DNA from: a virus
Virus record (IMG/VR): IMGVR_UViG_3300025127_000325
Location: 1-22,049 of that record
Length of the DNA stretch: 22,049 nucleotides
Reading direction: 5' to 3' (one strand)
The notes under the pieces were generated by a model, which saw nothing but the letters and a program-made list of their open reading frames with translations, made no database searches and was not told the DNA's origin. Of the stretch, positions 826 to 20,913 are shown piece after piece. A program made the translations under genes and the position numbers. Positions within the stretch are counted from its first letter, which is position 1; every line of letters starts with the position of its first letter.

Positions 826-3800
826 CTATACATTTAATGCATTAGCTCCTGCACTTGCACCTGCAAAAGCTTTTTTATCGATATCTAATGAACCTCTATT
901 TGACATCCCAAAGGTATCATTCGAATAATCAAGGCGATCCACAGTTGATTTTGGACCAGGAGTGCCACCTGCAAAATAACCAAAGAATTGATTTCCAGTT
1001 GCCGCTAATGCATTTCGTGCTAAAGTTAAATTATCTTTATTTGAAGTTGAAGCAGTATCATTAGCATAATCAATACGTTCAACACGACTTGTATTTCCGA
1101 GACTACCACCACCTCCAGCAAAGTAACCATAATTTTGATTACCAGTTGCTGCAAGATATGTTCGATAAATTCCAAGATTTCCTCTTGCTGATGCTGTTGA
1201 TGTATCACTTGCATAATCAATCCGATCTACTGTTGAGTTGCTTGGTCCTCCACCACCAAAATATCCAAAGTTTTTATTACCTGTTGCACCAGGATAAACT
1301 CTTGTTTGATTTAAATTTCCTTTTGGTGATGTTGTTGCACCATCATTTGAATAATCTAATCTATCTACTTTTGACTTACTATCTCCATTTATATAACCAA
1401 AATTATTTGTACCAACTGCAGATAATTCCTGACCATTGTATGAAAGAATACCAGTGTTGACAGCATATACACTTTCATTTGCAAGACTAAGCCTGAATAT
1501 AGTAGAATGTTCTGATCCGTTTTGATTTGTTCCTCCACCCCAATATGCAGAATTTTTATTAGCGATACCAAAACAGTTTTGCATTTGTCTATTGTTATTA
1601 ACTGAAGGTGATGATCCTTGGAATTGTGATACTTTTGCTGCTAAGACAGTATCATTGTTAAAATCAATTCGATTTATTCCAGATTGAACAGAACTTGGAT
1701 TATAACCACCACCAAAATATCCAAAGAACTCGAAACCAAATTTTTGTTGTGGTACAGGAAATGGTAAAGGATATGCAGATGAGAATTTTTGAGAGAATCC
1801 ATAATCCCTAGAACTAAATCCACCAGGAAATCTGTGAGGAACTGATAAATTTCCTTTTGGTGATGCAGTTGCTGTATCATTTGAATAATCTAAACGATCA
1901 ACTGTTGATTGACCACTTGGACCTGGATATCCACCACCCCAATATCCAAATTCAGGATTACCCGCTGCTGACATTTGCCATCTTGCAGCACTTAATGATC
2001 CTTTTACAGCAGTTGTCACAGTATCATTACTAAAATCTGCTCGATCCATTGAAGATATATCACTACCAGTTGTTCCACCACCCCAATATCCAAAATCATT
2101 ATTTGCTGTTGCACCCATATTATCTTTAGTTTGATTCAATAATCCTTTTGGTGACGCAACTACAGTATCATTTGAGTATTCAATACGATCTATAGATGAA
2201 ACACGAGAAGGTGTTTCTCCTCCTCCAAAATATCCGAAGTTACTATTTCCTGTTGCAGATGTGCCAGATCTAACTAATGTCAAAGTTCCTTTAGGTGACG
2301 CAACTACAGTGTCATTTGAATAATCAATTCGATCTACTCCTGATGAATTACCCGAAGGACTTTGCCCTCCACCAAAATATCCAAATTCATCATTACCTGT
2401 TGCAAGACTCTGACCTCTCTTAGGAGTACTCAAAGAACCTTTTGCCACCATCGCTGTGCTATCACTTGAATAATCAAGTCTGTCCACAGTAGTTACATAA
2501 GCAGGTGTTGCAGTGACTCCACCACCAAAGTAACCAAATTTCGTATTACCAACTCCTGCTGCTTTATACCTACCAGAAGTCATTGCTCCTTTTGGAGTTG
2601 CTGCTGAAGTATCACTTGCAAATTCAACTCTATCAACTGTCACCACTGCAGGAAAACCACCACCAAAATATGCAAATCCAGTTCCAACCGTGCTCGTTGA
2701 AGGCACATTACTATCAGTAAATTTTATTCTTTCAGTTAACGTGAATGATCTTTTATTTGATCTAGAGCTATGACCAGTGTGAAGAATAGAGGCTTCACTT
2801 AAATTTCCCTTTGGAGATGCTGTTGTTGTATCACTTGAATAATCAATACGATCTATTGTTGATAGATTCGGACTAGGATCAAAAGTACCACCCATAAAAT
2901 ATCCAAAATCTTTACTACCTGTTGCTTTAAGATAGTACCTACTACCACTTAGATTTCCTTTTGGTGATAATACTATCATGTCAGTAGCATAATCAAGTCG
3001 ATTTACAGTTGACACCCCTCCAGTAGATCCATCCGTTGTCCCCCCTGCAAAATATCCAAATTCTTGATTACCTGTTGCACCTAAATATGCTGTATCTTCA
3101 GGCAAATTACCTACTTTTGTACCTTTTTGAGTATCATTTGCAAAATCAATACGACTTGTTTGTGAGTTTCTATCGTTAGTATTATATCTTAGTCCTCCGG
3201 TAAAATATGCGAATACTCCATTTGAAGTAGAGTCTCCACCCCATTTTTGTAATCCTATGTTTCCTCTTACGTAAGTGGTTCCAAGGTCATTTGAATAATC
3301 TAATCTTTGAAGTATAGAATCATATTGTGGTGAATTATCAGGATCTTTACCACCACCCCAATATCCAAAATCAGAATTACCTGTTGCTTGTGCATCACCC
3401 GCTTTCTTTTCAAGTGTTCCTCTTGGTGATGGTATTGATGTGTCACTTGAGTAATCAAGTCTTTCTATTGTACAATATCCTCCAGGTGTTGGAGAAGCTG
3501 CTGATTGACCACCTGCAACAAATCCAAAATCTTTATTAGATGTTGCTGCTGCCTGACCGGTTACTTGGTTAGAATTTACTCTATTTGGTGCGGTTGCAGT
3601 ATCATTAGAGTAATCAATTCGATCATTTTTGGTGCCATATCCTGTATTACCTCCACCAGAACGATATCCAAATGCAGGTCCAAACTGAGGTGCTCCAAAT
3701 GCAGTCGTTGTAATAGAGGTGGTGCCTGGTGCCGTGGTCGGTGCTGCATTTTCTCTGGAACTTACACCACCTTCCAAAATATTAGTTTTCTGTGTAGTAA

Positions 3801-5745
3801 GATGCGTATAAAGACTTGCAGCTGTATCATTTGAAAAATCCATTTTCTGCAAAATACCATTAGTCACCGGAAATGTATTTCCAAGAGCCCATATTGCAAT
3901 AGAGGTATTACCTGTTGCGGAAGGATTTGAAAAACTACCATAGGCATTTGTAAATGCAAGTTTATTAGTCATGGTCGAAGTATCATTTGCATATTCCATC
4001 CGAGTTGCTCTTGAATCTCCAGTATATCCCCAACTTGCATATCCATACTCAGCGTTACCAGTTGCAGCTCCATAATAACCATACTGTCCCATGTTTCCTT
4101 TTTGTACCGTAGCCGATGTATCATTCGAATAATCTATACGGTATGTTCTTGACTGAGTTGTGAAACTAGGAAGAGTGCTTGAATTTCCACCCATGAAATA
4201 ACCATAAGACTGATTTCCAACACCAGCCATACCAGTTCTCTTTGGCATGGTTGCTTTATTAGATGTTGTGGAAGTATCAGATGAATAATCTAGTCTTTGT
4301 ATTCTTGAATCAAGATCAGTTCCTCCAGAAAAGTAACCATAATTAATGGTACTTGCTCCCGCTCTGTAACCTCCAGCTGCGGATAAATTTCCTTTTGCAA
4401 CTGTTGTTGATGTGTCACTTGAGTAATCAAGTCTATCTACATTCGATACATCTTGTGACGGATCATACGATCCACCTAAGAATCCACCAGCCCAGTATCC
4501 ATAAGATGGACTACTTGCCCCTGCAGTAGACTTTCTTGGTGCTAATAAAGGACCTCTTACAAGTGCGGTTTCTAAGTTAGTATCAAAATCAATACGATCA
4601 ACTGAACTATATTCAGTGCCACCATAATTTCCTCCACCAAAGTAACCATAAGGGTTTCCAACTGGAACTTGTCCAGGTTGACTAAAAGTTGAAGATCCTG
4701 AAGTGGTTGGTAAATTACATATTCTTGAACTAAATGCGTATTGATTGGTATTGAATTGACTTAAATTACCTTTTAGTGATGCTGTTGCTGTGTCATTACT
4801 AAAATCAACACGTTGACATTTTGTTGTATTTCCATATCCACCAGCCCAATATCCATATGAGGTATTACCTGTAGCAGATATATAATGTTTTCCATCAGCT
4901 AAGTTTCCTTTTGGTGATGCTGTTGCTGTATCGTTTGAGTAATCGACTCTATCAACAATGGACATATAAGAAGATCCATTTTGATCCTGTCCACCGCCAA
5001 AATATCCATAATCAGCATTACCTGCTGCTGCGAGAAAACCTCTAATTTGAGTTAATGGACCTTTTGATGGTGCTGTTTGTGTGTCATTAGTATAATCAAT
5101 TCTACCAACAAATGATACAGAGAGGTAACCAGGACCAGGATAGATACGACCACCACCAAAGTATCCATAATCCATATTTCCCGTCCCTGCTACACCTTGA
5201 CCTCCAGCTGGCCATGCCACAGTGCCTTTTACAACTGATGTTGAGGTATCACTTGCATATTCAATACGTTGTATCTCTGTAGTCCATCCAACTCCTTCAC
5301 TAGGAGCTCTTCCAGAAGCAAAATAACCATAAGTGTTATTTGTTACTGAACCCATACCACCTGTATTAGTTTCTAATGGTCCTTTTGTTGCTGCTGTTCC
5401 TGTGTCGGATGAATAATCAACTCGATCCACTGTTGATTCAATAGGCCAACCACCACCAGCAGCATATCCATAAGAAGTATTACCTGTTGCTCCACCTGCA
5501 GCAGCAGATCTAGATAGCGGTCCTTTTGTGACCATATTTGTACTATCACTCGCAAAATCTAAACGATCTACACTTGAATAAGGACCACCAACACCAGGAG
5601 CACTACCACCACCAAAGTATCCATAATCAGTTCCTAAAGGATTAGATATATCCTTAAAAACAAAAACATCGTTAATTGTTGAAGCTGTTCCGTTTATTTG
5701 TTTTCTATAAAATTGTTCGAGAGAGAATACACTTGACTTGCTCAT
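826..5745 (-). CDS. Giant beta-propeller repeat protein, probable tail fibre or adhesin
   Basis: A 1639-aa protein. After an N-terminal segment of 40 residues the whole chain is built of 30 repeats of 44-59 residues (longer where a linker follows), each beginning [YF]GY[FWA]xGG. Each continues with a variable Gly/Ser/Pro loop, then a core like VDRIDYSNDT, then SPKGNL, and ends in ATGN. This pattern suits kelch-like beta-propeller blades. The repeats form five groups of six, at about residues 41-338, 366-661, 692-992, 1024-1310 and 1341-1639. The four linkers between groups are 27-31 residues long and begin Ser-Ser-Arg at 339, 662, 993 and 1311. No signal peptide or membrane segment is seen. 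AAAGGAG lies about 11 nt before the ATG, and the gene follows the 2019-aa fibre gene by 16 nt. By position and composition it is probably a virion surface protein that binds host glycans or receptors. The blade fold and the binding role are inferences. Confidence 0.75.
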   Translation of the reverse strand: MSKSSVFSLEQFYRKQINGTASTINDVFVFKDISNPLGTDYGYFGGGSAPGVGGPYSSVDRLDFASDSTNMVTKGPLSRSAAAGGATGNTSYGYAAGGGWPIESTVDRVDYSSDTGTAATKGPLETNTGGMGSVTNNTYGYFASGRAPSEGVGWTTEIQRIEYASDTSTSVVKGTVAWPAGGQGVAGTGNMDYGYFGGGRIYPGPGYLSVSFVGRIDYTNDTQTAPSKGPLTQIRGFLAAAGNADYGYFGGGQDQNGSSYMSIVDRVDYSNDTATASPKGNLADGKHYISATGNTSYGYWAGGYGNTTKCQRVDFSNDTATASLKGNLSQFNTNQYAFSSRICNLPTTSGSSTFSQPGQVPVGNPYGYFGGGNYGGTEYSSVDRIDFDTNLETALVRGPLLAPRKSTAGASSPSYGYWAGGFLGGSYDPSQDVSNVDRLDYSSDTSTTVAKGNLSAAGGYRAGASTINYGYFSGGTDLDSRIQRLDYSSDTSTTSNKATMPKRTGMAGVGNQSYGYFMGGNSSTLPSFTTQSRTYRIDYSNDTSATVQKGNMGQYGYYGAATGNAEYGYASWGYTGDSRATRMEYANDTSTMTNKLAFTNAYGSFSNPSATGNTSIAIWALGNTFPVTNGILQKMDFSNDTAASLYTHLTTQKTNILEGGVSSRENAAPTTAPGTTSITTTAFGAPQFGPAFGYRSGGGNTGYGTKNDRIDYSNDTATAPNRVNSNQVTGQAAATSNKDFGFVAGGQSAASPTPGGYCTIERLDYSSDTSIPSPRGTLEKKAGDAQATGNSDFGYWGGGKDPDNSPQYDSILQRLDYSNDLGTTYVRGNIGLQKWGGDSTSNGVFAYFTGGLRYNTNDRNSQTSRIDFANDTQKGTKVGNLPEDTAYLGATGNQEFGYFAGGTTDGSTGGVSTVNRLDYATDMIVLSPKGNLSGSRYYLKATGSKDFGYFMGGTFDPSPNLSTIDRIDYSSDTTTASPKGNLSEASILHTGHSSRSNKRSFTLTERIKFTDSNVPSTSTVGTGFAYFGGGFPAVVTVDRVEFASDTSAATPKGAMTSGRYKAAGVGNTKFGYFGGGVTATPAYVTTVDRLDYSSDSTAMVAKGSLSTPKRGQSLATGNDEFGYFGGGQSPSGNSSGVDRIDYSNDTVVASPKGTLTLVRSGTSATGNSNFGYFGGGETPSRVSSIDRIEYSNDTVVASPKGLLNQTKDNMGATANNDFGYWGGGTTGSDISSMDRADFSNDTVTTAVKGSLSAARWQMSAAGNPEFGYWGGGYPGPSGQSTVDRLDYSNDTATASPKGNLSVPHRFPGGFSSRDYGFSQKFSSAYPLPFPVPQQKFGFEFFGYFGGGYNPSSVQSGINRIDFNNDTVLAAKVSQFQGSSPSVNNNRQMQNCFGIANKNSAYWGGGTNQNGSEHSTIFRLSLANESVYAVNTGILSYNGQELSAVGTNNFGYINGDSKSKVDRLDYSNDGATTSPKGNLNQTRVYPGATGNKNFGYFGGGGPSNSTVDRIDYASDTSTASARGNLGIYRTYLAATGNQNYGYFAGGGGSLGNTSRVERIDYANDTASTSNKDNLTLARNALAATGNQFFGYFAGGTPGPKSTVDRLDYSNDTFGMSNRGSLDIDKKAFAGASAGANALNV
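829..5625 (-). repeat. Thirty blade-like coding repeats in five groups of six
   Basis: In DNA coordinates the groups lie at 5625-4732, 4650-3763, 3672-2770, 2676-1816 and 1725-829. The linkers lie at 4731-4651, 3762-3673, 2769-2677 and 1815-1726. On the plus strand the repeat start is easy to see as recurring CCACCAAAATATCC-like words about every 150 bases. Groups one and two mostly start YGY; groups three to five mostly start FGY. Repeats 12, 26 and 27 are the most degenerate. Confidence 0.85.
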
Positions 5746-11835: not shown

Positions 11836-11843
11836 TATTTATG
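11836..11843 (-). promoter_or_regulatory. Possible late promoter motif CATAAATA
   Basis: The minus strand reads CATAAATA, a fit to the NATAAATA late motif described for T4-like cyanophages. It overlaps the end of the protease gene and sits 14 nt before the ATG of the 2019-aa gene. The leader would be under 10 nt, so it may be chance. Confidence 0.25.
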
Positions 11844-13680
11844 TTTGAAAAATTGATAATGATCCTTCTAAAGTCAAAGAGTCAATAGAAGGGGTAATGT
11901 TGTTTGCAAAAGGATTATATAAAATTCTTCGAGGAGAAGACTTCAAACTATAACTGTTCCCCCAGTAATTTGTATCAGTCCCACTATTACTGGTATAAGG
12001 ATCATAATAATCACCTGAGGATAGCATCACAGATCCCTCAGTAAGTAACCAATTTCTAACTGTTTTTCGATCTGCTGTGGGATTTGATTGTAAATACAAT
12101 GCAATGACACCTGAAACATTTGGTGATGCCATACTTGTTCCACTAATTGCATAATTATGAAATGAAGTATCTCTAGGATCATCATATCCAGAACTCCAAG
12201 GACTCATAATAATACTACCAGCTGCCCATACATCAATCGCAGGACCTCTGTCACTAAATGATGAACACCTTTCTTGACTACCAGATTGTCGAGAAGTATC
12301 AATTGATCCGACAGCTATAGCAGCATCATCCTCACCTTGTTTTGTTACAGCAGGGGTACCTAATCTATTGTATTGGTTTGAATATCCAGATCCATATACT
12401 GCAGTCCCTGCTGTAAACTCATTATCATAATCATCACCATCAACCACATCACATTTTCCGTTATTGTTTCCAGCGGAACATACAAGAACAACGTTTTGAC
12501 AATCTGCGTCATTTGCTAATTCATTTGCCTCTGATTGTCCAACTGTTTTTGTTGTTTTGAATTGGTAATAACTTCCTAAGTAAGTGCTCAAGTAATAAAC
12601 GGCAGGAACAGCACTCGATGATGCATCAACTTGAGTTTTACTATATGAAGTCCCTCTAAAAGAAGCAGTGTATGATAAATCTTTTCGAAAAAACTGTCTA
12701 AGACCCCAACTACAATTTACAACAGTAGGATTTTTTCTACCAGTCTCAGGATTTACTGGTTTATTTTTATGCCAAACTTTAATGTAATCAAATCCATCAC
12801 TAGGATTTGCAAATCCCGTATCACTTCTATCAACACATGCGATAGACCATATGTTTGCCTCAAAAGCAACACCAAATTGATTTCCAGCTGCTGTTCCAGC
12901 CACATGACTTCCATGATAAAGATCATTAGCAGGTATAGAACTTCCTAACGCTTTTGCTGTTGTGTAATTTGATAATGATCCAGTGCCTGGTGCAACAAGA
13001 CCTTCATCAGACCAGTTTATACCATAATCCTCAGCCCCATGTATTAATATATCTCTTACTCTAGTATCATTTTTATCAGTAAAAGATGTAACACCTGGTT
13101 TAAGAAACTCAGGATGATCCCAACGACAACCAGAATCCATGATTACAACATCAACATTCTTTCCTGTCAATGAATACTGTGAATCAGCACTTACAATCGT
13201 CCCTGTACCAAAATTATTTGCACTAGATTGATGTCTGTAAACACCCCACTGAGTAAAATCAAGTGTTGAACCAGGATCTGATGAAGATGCTGTTCTTAAA
13301 TTTCTACAATCATAATTAAATCTATTGATGTCTGTATGTTTGTCGAATTCCTCATCATATTTTCTTTGTTCTAAAACAATATTATTATACATTGAAGATT
13401 GTTCTACCCATTCTACCTTCGAATGATTTTTTAATGTGTCAGCTTCATTTACAGACATAGAATAAACAGATCTTTTTGGTGAGTAATTCATTTCTGAAGT
13501 ACAATCTATTTTTCGATTTGGAATGTTATCAATATTATTTTCATTTATAATGTAATTATGAATCTCAGTCCAATCTGATTCATCTTTTACACAAACAGTA
13601 AAATTTTGAGGTGTGTCATCAGTTATTGAATTATCAGATACTATAACTCTACCAGCAGAATTCAAAGATGTTGTTATCAT
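11839..13680 (-). CDS. Subtilisin-like serine protease (peptidase S8)
   Basis: A 613-aa protein with an intact subtilase triad: Asp182 in VIMDSG, His256 in HGSHVAGT and Ser516 in GTSMASP. The oxyanion Asn405 lies in SAGNNNG. Residues before about 165 look like an inhibitor-I9-type propeptide, with a stretch like YSMSVNEADTL followed by VEWVEQ; this would be removed by self-cleavage. There is no secretion signal, so it may act inside the infected cell or be carried on the virion. The start at 13680 is preferred over an ATG at 13701. It forms an ATGA overlap with the upstream fibre gene, and GGAGAAGAGAGG lies just before it as ribosome-binding site; the alternative start would place that site inside the gene. 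The position between two fibre genes suggests it processes fibre proteins or host surface protein. The last 50 or so residues are not typical of the catalytic domain. Confidence 0.9.
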   Translation of the reverse strand: MITTSLNSAGRVIVSDNSITDDTPQNFTVCVKDESDWTEIHNYIINENNIDNIPNRKIDCTSEMNYSPKRSVYSMSVNEADTLKNHSKVEWVEQSSMYNNIVLEQRKYDEEFDKHTDINRFNYDCRNLRTASSSDPGSTLDFTQWGVYRHQSSANNFGTGTIVSADSQYSLTGKNVDVVIMDSGCRWDHPEFLKPGVTSFTDKNDTRVRDILIHGAEDYGINWSDEGLVAPGTGSLSNYTTAKALGSSIPANDLYHGSHVAGTAAGNQFGVAFEANIWSIACVDRSDTGFANPSDGFDYIKVWHKNKPVNPETGRKNPTVVNCSWGLRQFFRKDLSYTASFRGTSYSKTQVDASSSAVPAVYYLSTYLGSYYQFKTTKTVGQSEANELANDADCQNVVLVCSAGNNNGKCDVVDGDDYDNEFTAGTAVYGSGYSNQYNRLGTPAVTKQGEDDAAIAVGSIDTSRQSGSQERCSSFSDRGPAIDVWAAGSIIMSPWSSGYDDPRDTSFHNYAISGTSMASPNVSGVIALYLQSNPTADRKTVRNWLLTEGSVMLSSGDYYDPYTSNSGTDTNYWGNSYSLKSSPRRILYNPFANNITPSIDSLTLEGSLSIFQT

Positions 13681-16600
13681 AATTGAACCTCTCTTCTCCA
13701 ACGATAGGTTGTAAGTCCACTAATTCCGGTTTCAGGAGTCACCTGAAGTAAAACATTTCCACTACTTATTGTTGATCCAGCTGATACCAGTTGAGAATTA
13801 CTAAACATAATCGCATACTCTTGAGATAAAGCTGTAGTTCCATTTTGCATTATGAGAACTTTTTGTGCCTGTGTGTTCGCACCATTTTCAATATGTAGTG
13901 TGTACTCTGCTGTTTTGTAATTATCAGTTCCATATGCAAAACTATCAATGTTAGTTGACACTCCAGCACTTGCAGTGAATGTGCCGACACCAGTGGCAAT
14001 GCCTGTAGCTAAAGCACTTCCTGCAGTAACAATACCTGTAATATTTGCACCATCTCCCTTAAATGATCTTGCTTCAAATTGTCCAGTTGATTTAGTAATC
14101 GTTGCGATACCAGATAAAGACACATTGAATGAACTATCACCAGTTATCCATCTATCATCAATCTGTCCAATTGCTAGTTGATAATCTCCAGTTGAATTGG
14201 CAACTCCAACACTATGTCCAATTGCAATGTTATAACTTCCAGTAGTTACATAACGGTTTGTATAACATCCAAATTGAATATTATGATTTCCTCCTGTGGT
14301 AAGACATCTACCTGACCAAAGACCCATCGAAATGTTATGACAAGTTGATCCATTGGATGTATTACCATATCCTGCATATCTTCCAATAGCGATATTATCA
14401 TTACCGGTTACATTTGCTGTTCCTGCTGAATGACCATGTAAAACGTTGTAACAACCTGTGGTTAAACATCTACCTGCACCATCACCTATTAATACATTAT
14501 AATCACCATTAGTGATGTGCCGACCAGCAGCATTACCTACTAATGTATTAGCAGTAGCTTGGCATAAACAACATCCTGCTCCATCACCTATTGCAACGTT
14601 ATAATTACCACTACTTAAATCTTTACCCGTACTGCGACCTAATAAAACATTTCCAACAGCAAATCCATTATCACCATATGCATATGCATCCATACCGATT
14701 GCGACATTATGAGTTCCACTGGTATTTGTTCTACCTGCACACCATCCAAGGAAAATATTACAACCTCCTGAATTAGTACAAGAACCAGCTACTTGTCCTA
14801 TGAAAATGTTACGATCACCTTCATCAATACAAAAACCTGCTCCACCACCTATTGCGACATTATTACAACCATCTTTTCCACTCGCACCTACTCCACGACC
14901 AGCACCAGAACCTAAGAATATATTATCATTACCATTAGCATTTCTTCCTGCATAATTTCCCATGAAAATGCTACAGGTTGAATTTGAATATTCTCCTGTT
15001 CTACAACCTAAGAAAACATTAAATGATCCACTTGTTAAACAAGCACCACTTTGTTTACCAATTAATACGTTATTATCACCTGCATTTAATGAAAATCCTG
15101 CACTAAATCCAACACCTACGTTGAAACATGTATCACCATCTTTGCATGCTCCAGCATTCGTACCAGCGAATAAGTTCTCTTGACCATCAGGACTGAATGA
15201 ATCACTGACTGTAATAATAGCTTTATTAGTACCTGATGCAGTTGCAGTAATAGATGCACCTTGGAAATCTAAAGTTTTTATAGAACCTGCCGTGCCTACT
15301 GTTGATGATTCTTCTTGAACTGTAATACCCGAAATAAGAGTTCCACCACCAGTGCCAGTTAAATTAGTACCATCACCATAGAATTGTGAGGCAGTTATGA
15401 TACCAGTGGTATTCACTGATGCGGTAGTGGTTAATCCTGTGGCTGTTACGTTAGATAGATTTGCACCTGAACCATAAAAACTTGTTGCCGTAACTGAATT
15501 AATACCTGATATATTTGTCGCACCATCACCAATTATATTTCCATTTGCATTTAAAGCATTTAATACTGTTAAGGTGCCATTCGCATTAATGTTTCCACTA
15601 AAAGTTGAAACACCAGATACAGTTAGTGTTTCTGCTTGAACATTTGCACCTTGTGTGCCAACACCAGTTAAATTAGAACCATCTCCGTAATAAGTCGCAC
15701 CAGTAATTATTCCTGCAGTTGTGACTCCCGTGATTACTAAATTATGAAAATTAGAATTTCCTGTAGTATTAATTCCTGTGTCTACATTAGTTACTATAGT
15801 TGCAATTCCAGAGTTAAATGTAACATCAAGATTTGTTGAAAAATCAATTGTACCTGCAGTTCCAACAGCAGACCCATTATCTTTAATAACAATACCAGTG
15901 CCTGATGCAGTTACTCCAGTAAGTCCCGATCCATCACCTACAAATCCAGATGCAGTAACGACACCCGTAAAAGCACCTTGTTTTGCAAAGAATGATGGAG
16001 AAGTAATAGTTGTTAATCCTGCAAATGTAGAGATACCAGATACTATAAGAGAATTAGTCCTCACGTTCTCAGTAACAGCAATACCAGTCAGACTTGATCC
16101 ATCACCAATGAAAGATGTAGCAGTAACAGAACCATTTACATCAACATTTCCAGTAAAAGTAGATATACCAGTTACATGTAGTCCACCAGCGGCAACACTC
16201 ACACCACCACCGACCACTACTATACCTTGCCTTGCAGTTATGACACCAACTGAATCTATATTAGTTACATCTTCATAAGTAAGAGTTCCACCAATAGATA
16301 CGTTGCCACTAAATGTACCATCGGTAGCAGTGAAAACACCTACGTTATATTTTTCTGTCCCTGTCCCTACAATTCCGTTTGCTTCTTTATTTACTAATTC
16401 ATACCATGCACCACCATGAGCAAAATATGCTTTTTGTGTAGCATGAACATGAGCAAATGCACCATGATAAGTTGCTGCCGATGGTAAATCAGTGTAATTA
16501 CTGTATAGGAATGGGATAACATTACTTGTCGCAGCACCTACAATTCTTCCATTTGAATCAATAGTGCTTGAAAATGTTGAAACCCCAGATACAAATATAT

Positions 16601-19824: not shown

Positions 19825-20913
19825 TTAACCAATAGAAGGTGCTGTTAAAGCAACTGTTGTTGACTCTGCACAAGCAAGATCTAATGGGAAGTTGTGTGCA
19901 TTTCTTTCATGCATTACTTCCATACCTAAGTTTGCTCTGTTTAGGACATCACCCCATGTAGGGATTACTTTTCCGTTTACATCTACAACTGATTGGTTGA
20001 AGTTGAATCCGTTTAAGTTAAATGCCATTGTGCAGATACCCATGGATGTTAACCATACGCATACTACAGGGAACACAGCAAGGAAGAAGTGAAGACTTCT
20101 TGAGTTGTTGAAAGAAGCATACTGGAAGATAAGACGACCAAAGTAACCGTGAGCGGCAACTATGTTGTATGTTTCTTCTTCTTGTCCGAACTTATATCCG
20201 TAGTTCTGTGACTCAGTTTCTGTTGTCTCTCTGATTAGAGAAGATGTAACTAAAGAACCGTGCATTGCTGAGAATAAAGATCCTCCGAACATTCCTGCTA
20301 CTCCTGCCATGTGGAAGGGGTGCATAAGAATGTTGTGCTCTGCTTGGAATACGAACATGAAGTTAAAGGTTCCTGAGATACCTAGTGGCATTCCGTCTGA
20401 GAAAGATCCCTGACCGAAAGGATACACAAGGAATACTGCGAATGCTGCAGATACAGGTGCTGAATATGCTACACATATCCATGGTCTCATACCTAGTCTG
20501 TATGATAATTCCCACTGTCTACCCATGTAGGCAGAGATTCCGATAAGGAAGTGGAAAATAACTAACTGGTAAGGACCACCGTTGTATAACCATTCGTCTA
20601 CTGTTGCTGCTTCCCAGATTGGGTAGAAGTGTAGACCGATAGCGTTTGATGATGGAACAACTGCACCAGAGATGATGTTGTTACCATATAAGAAAGAACC
20701 CGCAACTGGTTCTCTGATTCCGTCGATATCGACTGGAGGTGCTGCTATGAAAGCAACGATAAAGCATGCTGCTGCTGCGAGTAAGCATGGGATCATGAGT
20801 ACACCGAACCAACCAACATAGATTCTGTTGTTTGTTGATGTTACCCATTCGCAGAACTCAGGCCATCCTTGTAGGATACCACCTTGTCTGCGTGTTAAAT
20901 TTGAAGTTGTCAT
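19825..20913 (-). CDS. psbA: Photosystem II reaction-centre protein D1
   Basis: A complete 362-aa D1, close to the 359-360 aa of cyanobacterial forms, with an N-terminus three residues longer (residue numbers here are the standard numbers plus 3). D1 sits in the thylakoid membrane with five helices and binds the P680 chlorophylls, pheophytin, QB and part of the Mn4CaO5 cluster. Key residues are all present: Tyr164 (YZ), Asp173, Glu192, His193, His201 (P680), His218, His335, Glu336, His340, Asp345 and Ala347, followed by a C-terminal tail that would be cut off on maturation. Gln133 (standard Gln130) marks the D1:1-like form. The reading frame is unbroken, so there is no intron. Cyanophage psbA is known to be expressed during infection to replace damaged host D1. 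It has its own promoter region and terminator here. No Shine-Dalgarno precedes the ATG. Confidence 0.98.

Follow-up and report, generated by a model that had tools for sequence, protein, structure and literature searches.

The window analysed here is a stretch of 22,049 bases from a virus record, and its source was assigned to a T4-like marine cyanophage because the psbA gene in the window (19825-20913) is approximately 90% identical to psbA of Prochlorococcus phage P-HM2. The minus strand carries an ORF for a protein of 1639 amino acid residues, which consists of a short N-terminal anchor followed by five groups of repeats joined by four linkers. The plus strand of 829-5625, the interval quoted in the original prediction, contains many stop codons; this interval corresponds to residues 41-1639 of the protein. 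The features of the gene and of its neighbours are summarized in Table 1.

Table 1. Features of the tandem-propeller gene and its neighbourhood (window positions; residues of the 1639-aa protein; propellers are predicted)
Feature	Residues	Position	Strand	Remarks
DUF6445 protein, 210 aa		171-803	minus	Pfam PF20043, E 7e-12; directly follows the propeller gene
Tandem-propeller ORF, 1639 aa		826-5745	minus	ATG start; phrog_19111, E 4.4e-181
N-terminal anchor, SVFSLEQFYRKQ	1-40	5626-5745	minus	motif [GD][IV]FxLxxVYxxQ
Propeller 1, repeats 1-6	41-338	4732-5625	minus	block-replaced in relative L001 (43% aa identity)
Repeat starts, group 1	41, 92, 139, 193, 246, 297			
Linker 1	339-365	4651-4731	minus	SSR start; pLDDT <50 at 347-361
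Propeller 2, repeats 7-12	366-661	3763-4650	minus	
Repeat starts, group 2	366, 415, 469, 514, 567, 617			
Linker 2	662-691	3673-3762	minus	SSR start; pLDDT <50 at 671-687
Propeller 3, repeats 13-18	692-992	2770-3672	minus	
Repeat starts, group 3	692, 740, 793, 845, 896, 947			
Linker 3	993-1023	2677-2769	minus	SSR start; pLDDT <50 at 1000-1021
Propeller 4, repeats 19-24	1024-1310	1816-2676	minus	AlphaFold2 pLDDT 90.8; 99% identical in L001
Repeat starts, group 4	1024, 1070, 1121, 1170, 1218, 1266			
Linker 4	1311-1340	1726-1815	minus	SSR start
Propeller 5, repeats 25-30	1341-1639	829-1725	minus	chain end
Repeat starts, group 5	1341, 1396, 1445, 1493, 1539, 1588			
Tail-spike/virion structural protein, 2019 aa		5762-11821	minus	upstream; phrog_4636, phrog_6002, phrog_677; syntenic to P-SSM2 'tail spike'
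S8 (subtilisin) protease of the tail-fibre cassette		11839-13701	minus	homologue within an S-SCSM1 protein annotated as virion protein
Tail-fibre cassette genes, 1137, 113 and 619 aa		13677-19294	minus	gene order shared with P-SSM2 and propeller-carrying relatives

The gene is located in a tail-fibre cassette. The order psbA, HNH, fibre of 617/619 aa, 113-aa protein, long fibre, S8 protease and tail spike is common to the window and P-SSM2, and the upstream fibre genes are the same in relatives with propeller genes, where tail-fibre PHROGs lie next door. S-SCSM1, whose virion proteome was determined by mass spectrometry (PMC9602691), has a related cassette. Its cassette proteins carry virion-protein annotations, and one of them holds the protease homologue. 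At the corresponding place in P-SSM2 and S-SCSM1, no propeller gene was detected; the S8 protease is kept in the tail-fibre cassettes of both. The 2019-aa protein upstream contains dozens of Cys-rich NIFLGxxAG repeats, and its counterpart in L001 is 2171 aa long with near-identical ends and a different middle.

The DUF6445 protein of the window shows an HxD...H...R pattern and, inferred from sequence alone, may be a 2OG-Fe(II)-oxygenase-like modifying enzyme. The same family is also found beside propeller genes in relatives, and between the propeller genes of five loci (L076, L078, L082, L083 and L084) there are genes for DUF6445 proteins, 2OG-Fe(II) oxygenases, glycosyltransferases, FkbM methyltransferases and sulfotransferases. 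These neighbouring enzymes raise the possibility of modified fibres and a fibre-modification cassette, for which gene proximity is the only evidence. Note that PHROG 1644 is labelled 'minor coat protein', a label that looks wrong because its members (the protein at 171-803 of the window and those of L076 and L078) match DUF6445 and carry the pattern of a 2OG-Fe(II) oxygenase.

The 1639-aa protein contains 30 repeats of 44-58 residues each, arranged in five groups of six. The linkers between the groups are 27, 30, 31 and 30 residues long and all begin with SSR, a tripeptide that occurs at residues 339, 662, 993 and 1311 and nowhere else in the chain, which stops shortly past repeat 30. Three repeats (starting at 617, 1396 and 1445) are degenerate, so that the strict motif fails, and all three are detected by profile and alignment. 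The same 5 x 6 layout is present in the full-length relative L001. The original prediction had claimed the 5 x 6 arithmetic, SSR insertions of 27-31 residues at these four positions and the end of the chain after repeat 30, and all three claims held.

A search of IMG/VR with a propeller profile yielded 56 loci. Exactly 6, 12, 18, 24, 30 or 36 repeats were counted in 60 of the 72 non-redundant complete ORFs (binomial p approximately 4e-35 against 1/6, relatedness ignored), and the enlarged repeat spacings in the relatives come after every sixth repeat. The reading of 30 as a chance number was ruled out by these family-wide counts in multiples of six. The 12 exceptions include several in which repeats were missed or called twice (28 with two gaps of double length, 17 and 25), an apparent frameshift split (L008/G004, 6+24 repeats), several split ORFs from S-SKS1 (9+3 and 3+9), and three divergent ORFs from AG-345-L05 (17, 15 and 11 repeats), in which the repeats are likely to have been undercounted. 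S-SKS1, an isolated Synechococcus phage (host WH7803), has three propeller loci, two of them split as above, and its propeller proteins are annotated as hypothetical only. The parts of its split genes, in the regions 201816-208007 and 1-1226, lie in different frames (L002 = 201816-206351), for which sequencing error, decay or frameshifting are all possible. Propellers also travel alone, since L016 and L046 (ORF from 5084) carry single propellers on other N-terminal parts, which by eye are phage-structural-like or lectin-like. The relatives are cyanophage-like, with psbA/psbD in 7 and the gp23 capsid gene in 6 of the 16 records tested, many of which are fragments. None of the 84,980 bacterial and archaeal genomes searched gave a confirmed relative.

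The fold of the repeats was predicted by modelling. The AlphaFold2 model of propeller 4, built with an alignment of 88 propellers, has a pLDDT of 90.8, a pTM of 0.90 and 24 strands. Its top Foldseek matches in the PDB were six-bladed kelch propellers (the designed SAKe6, KEAP1 and KLHL12), matched over the full length (TM 0.86, approximately 298 columns, E to 1e-17), and a profile search matched KLHL12 by sequence alone (E 2e-5). With 24 strands and this TM value, the prediction is that of a closed ring of four-stranded antiparallel blades. The strand order of the repeats within each group is b-c-d-a, and SSR directly follows the last a-strand; from this topology and the full-length match we infer that each ring is expected to be completed by pairing of this strand with the first b-strand of its group. 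The model of residues 1-1021 (anchor, three propellers and linkers) was of modest confidence and rested on a thin alignment of 37 sequences (pLDDT 70.9, pTM 0.40), with the propellers mostly at 70-90 and the linkers below 50. Low linker pLDDT together with such a pTM is the expected outcome for a flexible string of beads, and for the same reason the lack of a clean multi-propeller superposition when the long model was compared by Foldseek with viral structures is expected. In the anchor, residues 9-17 are predicted as a helix with low confidence.

By sequence search, the full chain gave no useful match to PDB or Pfam, including Pfam kelch, and a deeper profile was needed; weak Pfam matches were found among 88 relatives (Kelch_3 in 10 and Kelch_1 in 6). 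Across 1482 repeats, the double glycine (FGYFGGG) is conserved in two columns (entropy 0.58 and 0.45), as is a Tyr/Phe at column 22; no Trp characteristic of kelch repeats is conserved after the Tyr. AlphaFold2 and the kelch structural matches strongly support the original prediction of five six-bladed propellers on linkers, which we regard as very likely; the models cover one propeller and a three-propeller chain. The structure prediction proposed at that time as a check gave a closed 24-strand propeller for one group and placed the linkers outside the propellers, and the outcomes named as refuting it (an open solenoid, another blade number or linkers inside a propeller) were not seen.

Comparison of the window protein with L001 showed that whole propellers are exchanged between phages. 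The two proteins are 77% identical over their full length, with little change in the anchor (92%), propeller 4 (99%) and the linkers. By contrast, propeller 1 is only 43% identical in amino acids (59% in DNA), and identity shifts sharply near residues 40 and 340. Similarly, L012 and L020 differ in anchor type but share a propeller 2 with 92% identity, against approximately 65% in its flanks. Certain breakpoints lie inside propellers, such as that at about residue 540 in propeller 2 of the window protein. Among the 1482 repeats, the most variable segments are the b-c loop (entropy of 2.9-3.9 bits at columns 8-14, with differing lengths) and the d-a loop (2.1-3.7 bits at columns 37-42); the c-d and a-b turns, mostly at 0.6-2.0 bits, are largely conserved. 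Because an antiparallel blade of four strands has its b-c and d-a loops on one face, the variability is concentrated on a single side of the propeller, as expected of a recognition surface.

Nearly all members of the family have the N-terminal motif of the anchor. T4-like cyanophage genomes contain up to three paralogues with one to six propellers each, and contigs that are long enough typically have three propeller genes with three anchor types (A, B and C). The anchor types are orthologous across genomes because the nearest neighbour of an anchor was in another genome in 34 of 36 cases. The repeat numbers per genome include 12/12/12, 18/18/18, 24/24/24, 30/30 and 36/36/36; unmatched genomes have 24/36/24, 36/30/30 and 12/30. 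By automatic counting, all genes were equal in 15 of 20 genomes against 1.8 expected (permutation p<1e-4). When near relatives were dropped, 9 of 14 genomes were all equal against 0.84 expected (p<1e-4), and the length-variable group alone gave 5 of 10 against 0.92 expected (p=0.0005), with the split G004 gene scored as a mismatch. It is possible that these statistics are still inflated by remaining relatedness.

The anchor of the window gene is C-like, and C is the first gene in most cassettes ordered by eye; we therefore infer that the other paralogues probably lie beyond the left end of the window, which is a 22-kb fragment. A tblastn search with the anchor peptide alone against known phages gave nothing significant, and thus no better-studied protein with this anchor was found; an anchor HMM gave no convincing match to non-propeller ORFs in the family loci.

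We compared the family with known systems. It shares with six-bladed kelch proteins (KEAP1, KLHL12 and SAKe6) the closed six-bladed fold of four-stranded blades (here predicted), the double glycine after strand b and a repeat of about 50 residues, but it lacks a BTB or other partner domain and the conserved kelch Trp, and it is viral, has up to six propellers per chain and adjoins tail-fibre genes. The window protein is a member of phrog_19111 by sequence (seven stretches); this 443-aa profile has no assigned function or structure and spans only about one and a half propellers. The S-SKS1 region SWZG_00286-00291 has the same repeats and anchor motif in three loci of 12 repeats, but with two propellers per gene and two of the three genes split. 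Kelch propellers are also present in jumbo phages (CBB_550/552/554, PhiPA3, Noxifer, PS119XW and BcepSaruman); CBB_552 is present in the virion (PMC5259590), and the PhiPA3 and Noxifer matches are named virion structural proteins. However, these were matched here by fold comparison only, and no sixfold-quantised tandem series with a GIFxL anchor was seen or reported among them. Cyanomyovirus P-HM2 has a 'Kelch-repeat-containing protein' (PMC3037559), which gave no tblastn match with the window family and is likely to be different from it. As with the tail-fibre proteins of T4-like cyanophages, the window gene lies in a tail-fibre cassette; its predicted chain consists of propellers and linkers only. 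In the open-access literature searched, which did not include bioRxiv and many subscription journals, we found tandem six-bladed propellers described neither in sixfold steps nor in length-matched triplets. The statement in the original prediction that no phage fibre of this design was described thus held in part: single kelch proteins are already known in phages (CBB and other jumbo phages), but no description was found of the tandem, sixfold-quantised, length-matched design with three paralogues.

We consider it likely that the 1639-aa protein is a virion-attached, multivalent tail-fibre adhesin. Both its virion location and its binding are inferred, without proteomics, imaging or binding data for the protein or its close relatives, and kelch propellers are known from intracellular proteins without adhesive function as well, which counts against this reading. 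It is plausible, by inference from the tail-fibre context, the hypervariability of one face and the swapping of modules, that the protein is a bead-like adhesin with many binding sites, as suggested earlier. In the proposed mechanism, the short anchor (about 25 residues, partly helical) would dock the protein to the tail or baseplate, and the five closed kelch-type propellers would follow as beads on a string of flexible linkers of 27-31 residues, the final a-strand closing each ring on the first b-strand and the conserved SSR marking the point where the chain passes into the linker. On one face of each propeller, the variable b-c and d-a loops would bind glycans or proteins of the host surface (the ligand is unknown), and several weak sites on one flexible chain would give avidity and reach. 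Propellers swapped whole at linker boundaries would provide new binding heads without disturbing the fold. Genes for 2OG-oxygenases, glycosyltransferases and sulfotransferases lie nearby, and their products may modify the propellers, an inference from gene proximity only.

Several other explanations should be weighed against the adhesin. The proteins may form surface whiskers or a decoration coat on the tail or head, serving as spacers or as a diffusion-slowing brush or shield without specific receptor binding. Phage CBB has kelch proteins, including one present in the virion, as well as tail whiskers of 119 nm without an assigned gene (PMC5259590); the range of one to six propellers with matched lengths within a genome would suit a brush, and the nearby modifying enzymes a glycosylated coat. 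We regard this as unlikely, however, since the genes lie within the tail-fibre cassette and the hypervariability of one face and the exchange of whole propellers resemble the outcome of selection for binding or recognition; a coat undergoing immune-like escape nevertheless stays possible. Far less probable is a role as a kelch hub inside the infected cell, where it would bind host proteins like the kelch proteins of poxviruses, even though kelch propellers are classical hubs of protein interaction and poxvirus kelch proteins were among the structural matches. There is no BTB or other effector domain, all paralogues have the conserved short anchor, the genes are among tail-fibre genes, and an intracellular adaptor with up to 36 serial repeats would be costly.

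That the protein is an enzyme or a glycan-degrading propeller of a tail spike (galactose-oxidase-like or a lyase) is similarly improbable. Kelch propellers are found in galactose oxidase and some lyases, and 'Galactose oxidase' names occur among the phage structural matches, but the window protein has no Pfam enzyme domain and, unlike in an active site, the conserved positions are structural residues of the repeat and the exposed loops are hypervariable. Finally, the chain may be an open solenoid or have another blade number, with the periodicity of six otherwise caused, and the only moderate confidence of the long-chain model leaves some room for this. It is all but excluded by the full-length match to a closed six-bladed kelch (TM 0.86), the 24 strands and the family-wide breaks every six repeats; for the modelled propeller, the 24 strands and the full-length six-bladed matches ruled out the open-solenoid and seven-bladed readings.

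Returning to the adhesin, a bolder reading is that the three matched paralogues assemble either into a single heteromeric fibre or into three fibres of matched length. The result would be an appendage of up to 18 swappable propellers, shuffled whole, with propellers decorated by phage-encoded hydroxylases, glycosyltransferases and sulfotransferases. We offer it tentatively, judging that the balance tips slightly against it; the evidence for three anchor types and matched numbers comes from relatives, the window phage being a fragment, and the physical assembly is inferred.

Host recognition by marine cyanophages is poorly understood structurally. The propeller cassette recurs in many aquatic viral contigs, and in the isolate checked (S-SKS1) its products are hypothetical proteins only. 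If our reading is correct, the family would represent a modular adhesin in which swappable six-bladed heads are arranged in series on a flexible string, an architecture that trimeric beta-helix or collagen-like fibres are not known to have. The propeller numbers, matched among paralogues and variable between genomes, would then make a concrete prediction on the stoichiometry and reach of these adhesins.
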